From Aliidongia dinghuensis (lineage in GTDB: Bacteria; Pseudomonadota; Alphaproteobacteria; ATCC43930; CGMCC-115725): a stretch of DNA of 64,000 bases. The notes under the pieces are model-generated. The model worked only from the letters and a program-made list of their open reading frames with translations. It was not told where the DNA came from and did not search any database. The translations under genes and the position numbers were made by a program. Positions 60,807-64,000 of this stretch are shown here, piece after piece. Where the stretch lies: NCBI RefSeq assembly GCF_014643535.1, contig NZ_BMJQ01000009.1:62001-126000 (forward strand), given 5' to 3'. Every line of letters begins with the position of its first letter. Positions within the stretch are counted from its first letter, which is position 1.

Positions 60807-60883
60807 CGGAGTGTAGCTCAGCCTGGTAGAGCACTTGCTTCGGGAGCAAGGGGCCGGAGGTTCGAATCCTCTCACTCCGACCA
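60807..60883 (+). tRNA. tRNA-Pro (anticodon CGG)
   Basis: The 77-base tRNA folds into the cloverleaf: acceptor CGGAGTG pairs with CACTCCG, the D-arm is GCTCAGCCTGGTAGAGC, and the anticodon stem CTTGC/GCAAG encloses TTCGGGA, so the anticodon is CGG, reading CCG. The T-loop is TTCGAAT and CCA is encoded. A terminator follows directly. Confidence 0.97.
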
Positions 60884-60888
60884 TCGTT

Positions 60889-60941
60889 CGCATAGAAAAA
60901 GGGACTTGGCTCCAATGGGGCCAGGTCCCTTTTTCTATGCG
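60889..60941. terminator. Strong rho-independent terminator after tRNA-Pro
   Basis: A perfect 17-bp inverted repeat, cgcatagaaaaagggac (60889-60905) with its complement at 60925-60941, encloses a second stem tggctcc/ggggcca with an AAT loop. A-run and T-run flank the stem on both strands, so it can terminate in both directions. Confidence 0.92.
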
Positions 60942-61119
60942 CGGCAACGGCAGTCGGCCGCCTCACCGGACGACGACGCCGGACAACAGCGACGTGCAAC
61001 GACGCCGTGCAACAACGACGGGGCGGCATCGACGATGCCACACGTCACGATTGCTGACGGCAGCCTAAAACTCGGTCAGTATGAAGCCCGTGTGGGATGC
61101 AGCAGACACGGGGACAGAG

Positions 61120-62076
61120 ATGGTTGATGCCAAATTGACCTTGGATCCCAGCGAGAGGCATTTGACGGAAGCGGATCTCGAACGGCGGCGCGCGCTGGTC
61201 GGGCTTGAACAGCCGGACATCGCCCGCCTCTCCGCGATCGGCCCGCTGATTACCGACAATGCCGAGAAGATCGCCGCCAGCTTCTTCAATTATCTCTCCC
61301 GCATCGACGAGGCGTCGGAGCTGTTCAGGCGCCGCGATTGGCTCGACGAGGCAAAGCGACTCAAGATCGAGCATGTCCGGGCCATGGGCCTCGGCGAATA
61401 CAGTGCCACCTATCTCGGCCAGCGGGTCCGCCTGGCGCAGCTCTACACGCGCGCCGGCATCACCGTTCAGACCTTCCTCGCCGCCTTTCATCATCTCGTC
61501 CAATCGATCGATGCGGAAATCCTGAGCAACCGCGAGCGGCCCGCGCAGGACGCGATCCATGACGTCATGACGTTCAACAAGCTCGCGTTCTTCGACATCA
61601 CGATCATGGTCGAGGTCATGATCGCCGAGCGCGAGCGGACGATCGCCCTCCAGCAGGAAGCGATCCGGGAACTGTCGACGCCGGTGCTGCAGGTCCGCGA
61701 CCGTCTGCTGATCCTGCCGATCATCGGCGTGCTGGATTCGCAGCGAGCGAAGCAGCTGACCGAAAGCCTGCTCCATGCGATCCGCACGACGCGCGCCAAG
61801 ATGGCCGTCATGGACATCACCGGCGTCGCCGCCGTCGATTCCAAGGTGGCGAACCATCTGATGCAGACCGTCGCCGCGGCGCGGCTCATGGGTGCCAAGG
61901 TGATCATCACGGGCCTGTCGGCCGACGTGGCGCAGGCGCTCGTGGCGCTGGGCGTGGATCTGGGGCCGCTCAATACGGTGGGCGACCTGCAGGGCGGCCT
62001 CGAGGAGGCGGAGGCGCAACTGGGATACAAAGTCGTGCTCAACGGCTCCCCGGTATCGCCGGCCTACGCCCAGTAA
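61120..62076 (+). CDS. rsbR: RsbR-type stressosome sensor (globin-like domain + STAS)
   Basis: The start is placed at ATG 61120 (GGGGACAG upstream), giving 318 residues; ATG 61081 in the same frame is possible. The N-terminal about 160 residues have a globin-coupled-sensor layout, with a likely proximal His in RLKIEHVRAMG and a following YLGQRVRLAQLYTRAGI. A STAS domain (about 195-305) follows, with the conserved Thr234 of DITGVAAVDS, the kind of residue phosphorylated by RsbT; Thr264 in IITGL may be a second site. It forms the stressosome core with RsbS and could sense oxygen or redox through heme. Confidence 0.85.
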   Translation: MVDAKLTLDPSERHLTEADLERRRALVGLEQPDIARLSAIGPLITDNAEKIAASFFNYLSRIDEASELFRRRDWLDEAKRLKIEHVRAMGLGEYSATYLGQRVRLAQLYTRAGITVQTFLAAFHHLVQSIDAEILSNRERPAQDAIHDVMTFNKLAFFDITIMVEVMIAERERTIALQQEAIRELSTPVLQVRDRLLILPIIGVLDSQRAKQLTESLLHAIRTTRAKMAVMDITGVAAVDSKVANHLMQTVAAARLMGAKVIITGLSADVAQALVALGVDLGPLNTVGDLQGGLEEAEAQLGYKVVLNGSPVSPAYAQ

Positions 62077-62088
62077 GAGGCGGCGATC

Positions 62089-62463
62089 ATGGCCGTTCCT
62101 ATTATGAAGCAGGGTAACGTGCTCATCGCCTGCGTCCAGGCAGCCTTGAGCGACCGTGACCTCGTGCAGTTGAAGGACGAGCTGGCCTCGCAGATCGGCC
62201 GGCTGCGCTCGCGCGGCATCATCATCGACGTCTCGACGCTCGACGTCATGGATTCCTTTGCCACCCGAACCTTGCGCAGCATCGCGCAGACGGCGCGGCT
62301 GCGCGGGGCCGAGACCGTCATCGTGGGCATTCAGCCCGACGTGGCGTTCGCCATGGTGCAACTGGGGCTCGCACTGGACGACGTGACCACGGCACTCGAT
62401 CTCGAGGAGGGGCTTGAGTTGCTGAAGTCTTTGCAAGTCGGCGATGCCCGCCCCGGCGCCTGA
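62089..62463 (+). CDS. rsbS: RsbS-type STAS scaffold protein
   Basis: The 124-residue protein is a single STAS domain like RsbS: MKQGNVLIACVQAALSDRDL, IIIDVSTLDVMDSFATRTLR with the phospho-acceptor Ser49, and VIVGIQPDVAFAMVQLGL. RsbS builds the stressosome core with RsbR and holds RsbT until phosphorylated. It starts 12 bp after rsbR and its end overlaps rsbT by 20 bp, so the stoichiometry is coupled by translation. Confidence 0.92.
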   Translation: MAVPIMKQGNVLIACVQAALSDRDLVQLKDELASQIGRLRSRGIIIDVSTLDVMDSFATRTLRSIAQTARLRGAETVIVGIQPDVAFAMVQLGLALDDVTTALDLEEGLELLKSLQVGDARPGA

Positions 62464-62857
62464 CGCCTTCGTCGTCCGCGTGGCGGAGGACGTCGACGTG
62501 GTCGTGGCGCGCCAGAAAGGCCGCGAGATGGCGCAGCAGCTGGGCCTCGCCGGCACCGATCTGACGCTGATCGCGACCGCGATCTCAGAGATCGCGCGCA
62601 ACATCGTGAACTACGCCGGCCGTGGCGAGATCCGCTTCGCGCCCACGAAGGCGGGCGGACGCACCGGCATCGAGATCGTGGCGACCGACGAAGGGCCTGG
62701 GATCGCGGACATCGAGCTCGCCATGCGCGACGGCTATTCGACCGGCAAGAGCCTGGGCCTCGGCCTGCCGGGCGCCAGGCGCCTGATGGACGAGTTCGCG
62801 ATCCAGTCCACGGTCGGGTCGGGCACGACGGTCACCATGACGAAATGGATCAAATGA
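62444..62857 (+). CDS. rsbT: RsbT-type serine kinase (switch protein)
   Basis: The 137-residue protein has the GHKL ATPase motifs of RsbT: the N box SEIARNIVNYAGRG, G1 TDEGPGI and G2 KSLGLGLPGARRLMDEF. In Bacillus, RsbT phosphorylates RsbS and RsbR and then leaves the complex to activate RsbU. It overlaps the rsbS end and lies one base before the phosphatase gene. Confidence 0.93.
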   Translation: MPAPAPDAFVVRVAEDVDVVVARQKGREMAQQLGLAGTDLTLIATAISEIARNIVNYAGRGEIRFAPTKAGGRTGIEIVATDEGPGIADIELAMRDGYSTGKSLGLGLPGARRLMDEFAIQSTVGSGTTVTMTKWIK

Positions 62858-62858
62858 C

Positions 62859-63479
62859 GTGTCGGACGCGTCCAACCTCGCCGGCATCATGGAATGGGGC
62901 GTCGCGGCCCGGCCGCTGGCGAGCGAAAGCGTGTCTGGCGATCTGCACCTCGTTCTGCCGGTCGACCGCGGCGTCCTGCTCGCGGTCATCGACGGCCTCG
63001 GCCACGGCCCCGAAGCGGCGTTTGCCGCCGAGGCCACGGCAGCGGCCCTGGCCGAAGGGCTGCATCTGCCGCTGGTAGAGCTGGTGCGGCATTGTCATGA
63101 ACGGCTTCGCAAGACGCGTGGCGTCGTCATGAGTCTCGCGGCCGTCGAGCCGGAGCGAGGCCGCCTCTCCTGGATCGGCGTCGGGAATATCGAAACCGTC
63201 CTGTTCCGCGCCGATCCGGCGACCCGGCCCGGCCGCGAAGCGCTCCTGTGCCGCAGCGGCGTCGTGGGCTATCAGCTGCCGCCGCTGCGCCTCTATGAAA
63301 TGCCGATCTTCGCGGGCGACGTGCTGATGCTCGCGACGGACGGGCTGCACAACAGCTTTTCCGAACGGTCGCCGATCGGCGAGCCCCCGCAGACCGTCGC
63401 AACCGACTGTTTGGACCGGTACGGCAAGACGACGGATGATGGCCTGATCCTGGTCGCCCGCTATCTCGGAGCATCCTGA
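62859..63479 (+). CDS. rsbX: RsbX-type PP2C serine phosphatase
   Basis: The 206-residue protein starts at GTG 62859. It is a SpoIIE/PP2C-fold phosphatase: [22 protein letters not shown] contains the metal-binding Asp-Gly, [13 protein letters not shown] follows, and [13 protein letters not shown] provides the second acidic motif. It resembles RsbX, which resets the stressosome by removing phosphate from RsbR and RsbS. Its stop overlaps the kinase start (TGATG). Confidence 0.9.
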
Positions 63480-64000
63480 TGGAGAGCCTCCAGCAAGAAC
63501 GCCTCGAGCAATATGCCAAGGCGCTGAGAGCGCACCTGACGGCGCCGGGCGAACTCGAGCTCAACTATGCTTACGAGTTCGGCCGTGTCGCTATGAGCCA
63601 CGGGCTGGGTGTGCTGGACACGGCGATCCTCTATCACACGGCCCTCAAGGCAGCGACCAAGTCGTTCAGCCGAGCCGCGATCGAGCGTTCGATCGACATG
63701 GCGTCGGAGTTCCTGGCCGAGAGCCTGTCGCCGTTCGAGATGCAGCTGCGCGGTTACCAGGAGAGCAACGCGCGCCTGACGGCGGCGAACGAGGCCCTGC
63801 AGGCCGCCAACGACCAGCTGGCGCGCCAGGCGATGGAGCTGGCCGCCAACGCTGCCCAGCTGGCGCTCGCCCGCACCACAGCCGAGGCGGCGAGCGAGAG
63901 CAAGTCGCAGTTCCTCGCGGTCATGAGCCATGAGCTGCGCACGCCGCTGACCGCGCTCATCGGCTTCTCGGAACTGCTGCTGCAGGAAAACTTCACGCCG
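63479..64000 (+). CDS. RsbU-N-like domain / histidine kinase fusion (3' end cut by window)
   Basis: The frame is open from ATG 63479 to the window edge (174 residues visible). Residues 1-90 resemble the RsbU N-terminal RsbT-binding domain: [38 protein letters not shown] and [21 protein letters not shown] coiled coil (about 90-140) leads into a HisKA domain with His151 in [18 protein letters not shown]. The ATPase part must lie beyond the edge. In place of an RsbU phosphatase, RsbT would thus control a histidine kinase. This reading rests on the partial sequence. Confidence 0.85.

Follow-up and report, generated by a model that had tools for sequence, protein, structure and literature searches.

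A stressosome operon of Aliidongia dinghuensis that ends in a hybrid histidine kinase with an RsbU_N head

The alphaproteobacterium Aliidongia dinghuensis (RefSeq assembly GCF_014643535.1, 7.37 Mb in 91 contigs) carries a compact stressosome operon whose last gene encodes a hybrid histidine kinase. The operon lies near the end of the DNA stretch analysed here, the window, which comprises 64,000 nucleotides, i.e., bases 62001–126000 of the 318,807-base contig NZ_BMJQ01000009.1; positions below are numbered from its first base, and all features of the operon are on the forward strand. Open reading frames and Pfam matches place rsbR, rsbS, rsbT, and rsbX at 61081–63479, with the kinase gene starting at 63479. 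RsbR (61081..62076, 331 residues) joins a protoglobin-type sensor (PF11563, 75.2 bits) to a STAS domain (PF01740, 50.6 bits); an in-frame ATG at 61120, 13 codons downstream of 61081, is an alternative start and was the one chosen in an earlier reading of this DNA made from the letters alone (the sequence-only reading). RsbS (62089..62463, 124 residues) is a STAS protein (50.3 bits) matching the RsbS chain 6qcm_A with an E value of 1.6e-24. The RsbT switch kinase (62444..62857, 137 residues) was recognized by HATPase_c_2 (51.6 bits) and by alignment, and the RsbX feedback phosphatase (62859..63479, 206 residues) by the PP2C-type SpoIIE family (PF07228, 50.5 bits). A full RsbRSTX module, with RsbR and the STAS protein RsbS, the Bergerat ATPase RsbT, and the PP2C protein RsbX, is thus assembled in one operon. 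The genes are separated by 12 bases (rsbR/rsbS) or 1 base (rsbT/rsbX), or overlap by 20 bases (rsbS/rsbT) or a single base (rsbX/kinase). Both the gene order given by the sequence-only reading, with an RsbU_N-headed kinase in the last place, and its view of a single operon with junctions that overlap or measure at most 12 bases are borne out.

Only the first 174 of the 511 residues of the kinase are encoded within the window (63479..64000); the whole gene is L009:4480-6015, and its end lies 1,014 bases beyond the window. In the complete protein, Pfam finds, all over cut-off, RsbU_N (residues 10–88), HisKA (141–207), HATPase_c (255–366), and Response_reg (391–507), with a helical linker following the head, so that the gene does run on into the ATPase domain expected by the sequence-only reading, and into a receiver as well. 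The motifs SHELRTP at 150, NLLTNA within a motif at 260, and GTGLGLA at 329 are intact, a further catalytic motif lies at 301, and the receiver carries VIDIQMP at 438 and AKPFD at 495. The protein is therefore a hybrid histidine kinase with the phosphorylatable His, the Asn and Gly boxes, and the receiver Asp in place, and not an RsbU phosphatase, its C-terminal part consisting of HisKA, HATPase_c, and Response_reg in place of PP2C. The linker helix (63767..63820) shows a coiled-coil pattern read in the sequence, with Asn97, Asn104, and Asn111 and Leu100, Leu107, and Leu114 at seven-residue spacing; Asn97, Leu100, Asn104, and Leu107 are common to the kinase and its nearest relative, and in a low-confidence AlphaFold model one helix (residues 65–167) spans the linker. 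Such a pattern is usual in other hybrid kinases too, so it counts for little as evidence. Polar residues in the coiled-coil core have been discussed for phosphatase linkers by Baral et al. (2025, PMC12143880).

The head of the kinase (residues 10–88; 63506..63742) matches PF08673 with 26.7 bits in the whole protein and 30.0 bits when taken alone, against a gathering cut-off of 25.5 bits; the family assignment that had been proposed for residues 1–90 thus passes a profile search, if modestly. In the whole genome of A. dinghuensis the kinase is the sole match over the cut-off, and one other match at E ≤ 1 reaches 13 bits. The heads of the kinases in the same operon position in two other sampled genomes, G283 and G726, score 32.9 and 37.1 bits, respectively. 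A profile made from 13 RsbU_N heads, including that of the window, matches the Bacillus subtilis RsbU chains with an E value of 2.9e-16, and its best match to any other protein is no better than E 0.19. In B. subtilis RsbU, the residues Glu24, Tyr28, Ile74, and Ile78 have been implicated in RsbT binding, and the change of Tyr28 to Ile abolishes it (PMC12143880). The Glu aligned with Glu24 (Glu25 in the window kinase) is invariant in all 13 heads; the remaining contact columns vary among these heads and so do not define the family. Two AlphaFold models of the head, built from two-row alignments, show four helices, with a mean predicted local distance difference test score (pLDDT) of only 69.1 and 64.3.

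The other partner of the putative contact is RsbT, whose Arg19, Arg23, and Asn24 have been implicated in RsbU binding in B. subtilis (Baral et al., 2025, PMC12143880). Window RsbT has Arg23 and Arg27 at the columns taken by alignment as Arg19 and Arg23; the column of Asn24, occupied by Glu in the window protein, varies. For comparison, RsbT loci were collected at E ≤ 1e-15 from 42 of 398 genomes of the phylum and 15 of 357 genomes of the class (53 different genomes, scoring in each genome being limited to the 10 or 11 top candidates). To these were added a second locus each from G525 and G538 and the named records of Vibrio sp., Lysinibacillus, and Listeria, giving 58 loci. The 51 with a free-standing RsbT were used (G430, G486, G507, G575, G613, G665, and G718 were dropped), and RsbU_N was sought in them with the 13-row head profile, not with Pfam. 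Both arginines are present in all 11 loci with RsbU_N and in none of the 13 with a free RsbX and no RsbU_N, the latter having been read at least 3,592 bases past rsbX in every case but G528 (1,595 bases); the corresponding p value of 4e-7 overstates the contrast, because on the RsbT tree, with two changes in the presence of RsbU_N and three in the arginines, clustering leaves one independent pair (two if unsupported branches are admitted). The pair of arginines occurs also in 22 of the 26 loci that have an RsbT-RsbX fusion but lack RsbU_N, as well as in the single locus left over, which has none of the other parts. On the tree, window RsbT groups with the RsbTs of G283, G726, G319, Listeria, and Lysinibacillus, all from RsbU_N loci (support 96/91). 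In the RsbU_N locus of G538 the better-matching RsbT has Arg-Arg and a second RsbT Arg-Thr, and the other locus of this genome has Thr-Arg. As a sign of docking, the arginine contrast, seen in the alignment, is suggestive but no proof.

Of the 51 loci with a free-standing RsbT, 26 (e.g., L133, L139, and L140) encode a second RsbT as a fusion with an RsbX-type phosphatase. In the fusion loci of G367, G132, G242, and G384, which form one branch of the tree (93/93), the second arginine is missing from the first RsbT.

Other targets for RsbT were sought in the whole genome of A. dinghuensis. A search with RsbT gave one good match, RsbT itself, the others (E 0.003 and 0.0035) lying in frames of 982 and 1203 residues. 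Among the 29 matches to HATPase_c_2 at E ≤ 0.01, only RsbT is in a short frame (143 residues) and the other 28 are in frames of at least 414 residues, so that no free-standing RsbW-like protein is found among them. The SigBFG profile has nine matches in the genome, none over the cut-off (best 133.1 versus 234.35 bits; in a control set this profile was over its cut-off in 1 of 14 genomes). At these thresholds neither component of SigB partner switching, RsbW or SigB, is found, in agreement with the bypass of this branch proposed in the sequence-only reading; for lack of a SigBFG match over the cut-off and of a free-standing RsbW-like protein, a SigB-type cascade is not supported in this genome, and no RsbU_N target besides the kinase was found.

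Fusions of this kind are not confined to A. dinghuensis. PF08673 was over its cut-off in 4 of 385 genomes of the class and 9 of 398 genomes of the phylum, 11 genomes in all, and in nine of these (G000, G283, G380, G726, G489, G518, G531, G538, and G553) RsbU_N stands on a histidine kinase; RsbU_N kinases are, by this count, the usual form in the sampled Pseudomonadota and not an oddity. HATPase_c is over the cut-off in all nine kinases and HisKA in four, the score being below it in G489, G518, G531, G538, and G553. Also or instead, RsbU_N is found on an HD domain protein in three genomes (G482, G489, and G553) and on a GGDEF protein in one (G538, 25.7 bits); in G054 an RsbU_N-PAS protein is cut by the contig end, and the best match of G482 adjoins a run of N and is not assignable to a gene. 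The 17 proteins put through Pfam, among them the window kinase, gave no PP2C match. An RsbT is encoded in the fetched stretch of eight of the 11 genomes, all but G054, G518, and G531, and the order rsbR-rsbS-rsbT-rsbX-kinase is the same in G283 and G726. The 13-row profile, which includes the kinase head of G319 among its rows, matches that head; with PF08673 the head stays below the cut-off (18.9 bits) and outside the matches at E ≤ 0.01.

The direct RsbU_N-kinase fusion had been put forward in the sequence-only reading as deserving attention; that it is new is not supported, since the arrangement is already in print and is present in nine of the 11 sampled genomes just described. In the survey of Heinz et al. 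(2022, PMC9237108), eleven downstream types of RSTX modules are distinguished, HisKA/REC phosphorelays are reported downstream of such modules, and, for alpha-, beta-, and gammaproteobacteria, signalling proteins encoded after RsbX are described as having RsbU_N-like N-termini; RsbU_N proteins in stressosome operons, kinases included, are reported by Baral et al. (2025, PMC12143880). The window operon shares with these modules the globin-STAS RsbR, RsbS, RsbT, RsbX, and the RsbU_N protein, and, as far as the texts of the two papers allow a comparison, differs by a hybrid kinase with its own receiver and by a globin without the proximal histidine. It is thus a well-formed member of a published kind and not a new kind, and the details added here are the Tyr122 apparently replacing the proximal histidine of the globin and the RsbT arginine contrast read from the alignments. 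The Vibrio vulnificus stressosome resembles it in having two-component genes, VvD1-VvD2, downstream of rsbRSTX, but, in the part of Heinz et al. concerned with these proteins (PMC9237108), RsbU_N was not detected in the downstream proteins, unlike in the window kinase, and no positive result is given for a VvRsbT-VvD1 interaction. At the locus of Vibrio sp. THAF191d (L072), which is not V. vulnificus, no RsbU_N match was found either; the two arginine columns of its RsbT hold Val and Tyr, and its globin has the His. The Bacillus/Listeria RsbRST-RsbU-SigB pathway has the same type of RsbT, with both arginines and an RsbU_N target; the window operon differs by a histidine kinase instead of a PP2C phosphatase as the effector and by rsbX directly after rsbT, and in its genome neither a free-standing RsbW-like protein nor a SigB over the cut-off was found. 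In Moorella, a GAF-GGDEF diguanylate cyclase is under the control of RsbT via an RsbU N-terminal domain (Quin 2012, as cited in PMC12143880), which parallels the window in that RsbU_N sits on a non-phosphatase effector, the effector here being a histidine kinase. In the literature examined here, no experiment showed an action of RsbT on a histidine kinase by way of RsbU_N.

Taken together, the locus is probably a minimal rsbRSTX stressosome operon the output of which is a hybrid histidine kinase, with released RsbT docking on the kinase and setting, most likely raising, its activity. By analogy with the Bacillus pathway, from which phosphorylation, release, binding and its sign, and the path of the phosphate beyond the receiver are all inferred, the RsbR:RsbS complex would hold RsbT in the absence of a signal. 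Upon a signal, RsbT would phosphorylate Ser220 and Ser254 of RsbR and Ser56 of RsbS and leave the complex. The phospho-acceptor columns are indeed all Ser: Ser220 (61738..61740) aligns with Thr or Ser of the solved RsbR chains and Ser254 (61840..61842) with Thr, one chain having Ala in each case, and the column of Ser56 has Ala in a solved RsbS variant. Free RsbT would then bind the RsbU_N heads of the kinase dimer and order the coiled-coil linker, thereby changing the autophosphorylation of His151, most likely upward. The phosphate could pass from His151 to Asp440 of the kinase's own receiver, then perhaps to one or more Hpt proteins (14 PF01627 matches are over the cut-off in the genome), and on to an unlinked response regulator, and RsbX would reset the stressosome core.

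Several observations weigh against this interpretation. The Pfam score of the head is close to the cut-off, and Foldseek comparison of the low-confidence head models with RsbU 1w53 was not significant (rank 2, E 1.6; rank 26, E 3.2); with neither model was there any match at E ≤ 0.001, so the models lend no support. Of the four RsbT-contact residues of RsbU only Glu24 is kept in the kinase head, with Tyr28 aligned to Asn29, Ile74 to Ala80, and Ile78 to Ser84. The arginine pair is not specific to RsbU_N, being present in 11 of 11 RsbU_N loci versus 23 of 40 of all others (p 0.009, a value that overstates the difference for the reason given above). Finally, the cognate response regulator is absent from the operon.

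Docking with the opposite sign, in which the release of RsbT turns the kinase off or converts it into a phosphatase and the kinase is on as long as the stressosome holds RsbT, shares all the evidence for docking, and the control that a linker exerts on a histidine kinase can have either sign; RsbU, however, is activated by the binding of RsbT to its N-terminal domain and linker (PMC12143880), which makes the inverted scheme rather unlikely. A scheme without docking, in which RsbT transiently phosphorylates the kinase on Ser/Thr and RsbU_N serves as a dimerisation module only, draws on a proposal made by Heinz et al. (2022, PMC9237108) for kinases without RsbU_N, and the three contact residues lost from the window kinase agree with it; yet the window kinase has the RsbU_N that VvD1 is without, and window RsbT keeps both arginines, as against none of the 13 RSTX loci lacking RsbU_N, so that we regard such a mechanism as quite improbable. 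That the head is a helical bundle matched by chance, on a kinase placed there by accident, as its near-threshold Pfam score and the Foldseek result might suggest, is hardly credible for the sole match over the cut-off in a 7.4 Mb genome, encoded by a gene that begins on the last base of rsbX, when the relatives in G283 and G726, whose operons have the same order, score higher.

If RsbT does dock on the kinase, signals from the stressosome are fed into a His-Asp phosphorelay with neither sigma-B nor a partner switch in between. With a single operon, only one RsbT, and only one RsbU_N protein over the cut-off in the genome, A. dinghuensis would then allow a clean test of the published idea that RsbU_N can be exchanged as an input module; the operon deserves a line in a survey and should be a useful test system. 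The arginine contrast may also offer a reading of the lack of a positive interaction result for VvRsbT-VvD1 in Heinz et al. (2022), although the Vibrio RsbT compared here is that of another strain (L072).

The input side of the operon departs from the Vibrio model. The best solved relative of RsbR is 7o0i_B (E 1.7e-36), labelled 'Anti-anti-sigma factor', which we take to be from the Vibrio vulnificus RsbR complex. In alignments to HemAT (1or4), 2w31, and 7o0i_B, Tyr122 of RsbR (61444..61446) falls at the column with His in these structures, presumably the proximal haem ligand. The same column has Tyr in G283 and Asn in G726, and within the aligned RsbR set His is found there only in the Vibrio record, G502, G634, and G724, many of the other proteins probably not being globin-type in this part. 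Window RsbR therefore does not qualify as a haem globin of the Vibrio type, and oxygen sensing like that of the Vibrio brasiliensis stressosome (PMC4976288) should not be assumed for it, because Tyr122 occupies the proximal-histidine column. A non-haem globin would be the simpler reading of this substitution, and a Tyr-ligated haem globin the bolder one.

A wider scheme can be sketched, which we put forward tentatively as a possibility. RsbT and RsbU_N would be a portable docking pair, and Pseudomonadota would wire stressosomes to histidine kinases in three ways, by docking on an RsbU_N of the kinase as in the window, by covalent fusion of an RsbT-like domain to the kinase, or, as in the Vibrio type, with no docking. 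RSTX loci without RsbU_N would have lost the docking arginines, and the wiring of an RSTX locus might for this reason be readable from two RsbT residues. The window globin would be haem-free or tyrosine-ligated, and its kinase would report something other than oxygen at a histidine-ligated haem.

Several loci of the comparison show further arrangements. Two assigned RsbU_N effectors over the cut-off lie behind rsbT in three loci (G489, G553, and G538), where an HD or GGDEF protein stands beside a PAS-histidine kinase-receiver protein (L065:6281-9278, L066:4703-8298, and L069:6217-8894); given such tandem effectors behind an rsbT, RsbT may drive cyclic di-GMP and phosphorelay outputs together. 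In G518 an MCP-domain protein (L070:695-2215), with RsbU_N below the cut-off (18.9 bits), adjoins the RsbU_N kinase, and a link to chemotaxis arrays is possible. In G726 a single-domain receiver (L064:4703-5080, reverse strand) follows the RsbU_N kinase with a 4-base overlap and is a candidate cognate regulator; the window locus, by comparison, has no separate receiver gene but a receiver fused to the kinase. In several Pseudomonadota loci an RsbT-like ATPase domain is itself fused to HisKA-HATPase-receiver behind rsbT and an rsbT-rsbX fusion, as seen with Pfam at L140:4389-6152 (reverse strand), L133:7135-8964, L167:6675-8795, and L136:6465-9020 (all forward strand; L136 from 7062 on). RsbT-like and kinase domains share one frame in 12 of the 58 loci, weakly in three of them (G367, G685, and G133); in these proteins RsbT and kinase are linked covalently, and a literature search, judged by titles, found no paper dealing with such a fusion.

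Beyond the sampled genomes, tblastn of the kinase head against plasmids and phages gave no match, and among 39 genomes of the same family only that of the window itself has the head at E ≤ 0.001. When 84,980 species genomes were scanned with a two-row head alignment, using two short peptide patterns, so that the outcome says little about rarity, one of 58 candidate stretches was confirmed, a Rhodospirillales metagenome-assembled genome (L046) the DNA of which is the G283 contig already in the sample.

On its upstream side the operon is preceded by a tRNA-Pro (CGG) gene (60807..60883, forward strand, ARAGORN), which lies outside it, and by an inverted repeat at 60890..60940 (forward strand) with two perfect 16-base arms (60890-60905 and 60925-60940) and a T-run, a probable terminator between the two; another scan gave a shorter stem at the same place. 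Because of this tRNA gene and repeat just upstream, the operon probably forms a transcription unit by itself; a promoter scan found nothing. An origin of the locus as a genomic island inserted at tRNA-Pro was considered and rejected, as no second copy of the last 12–18 bases of the tRNA occurs in the window or L009 and the GC content is like that of the surroundings. Downstream, the next gene encodes a GNAT acetyltransferase on the opposite strand, and hence the operon ends with the kinase and includes no separate regulator. Among the records compared, CP031730.1 (L075), named as a Stenotrophomonas rhizophila plasmid, contains an rsb-sigB locus with the gene order of the Lysinibacillus record (L073) and looks like a mislabelled or contaminated assembly.

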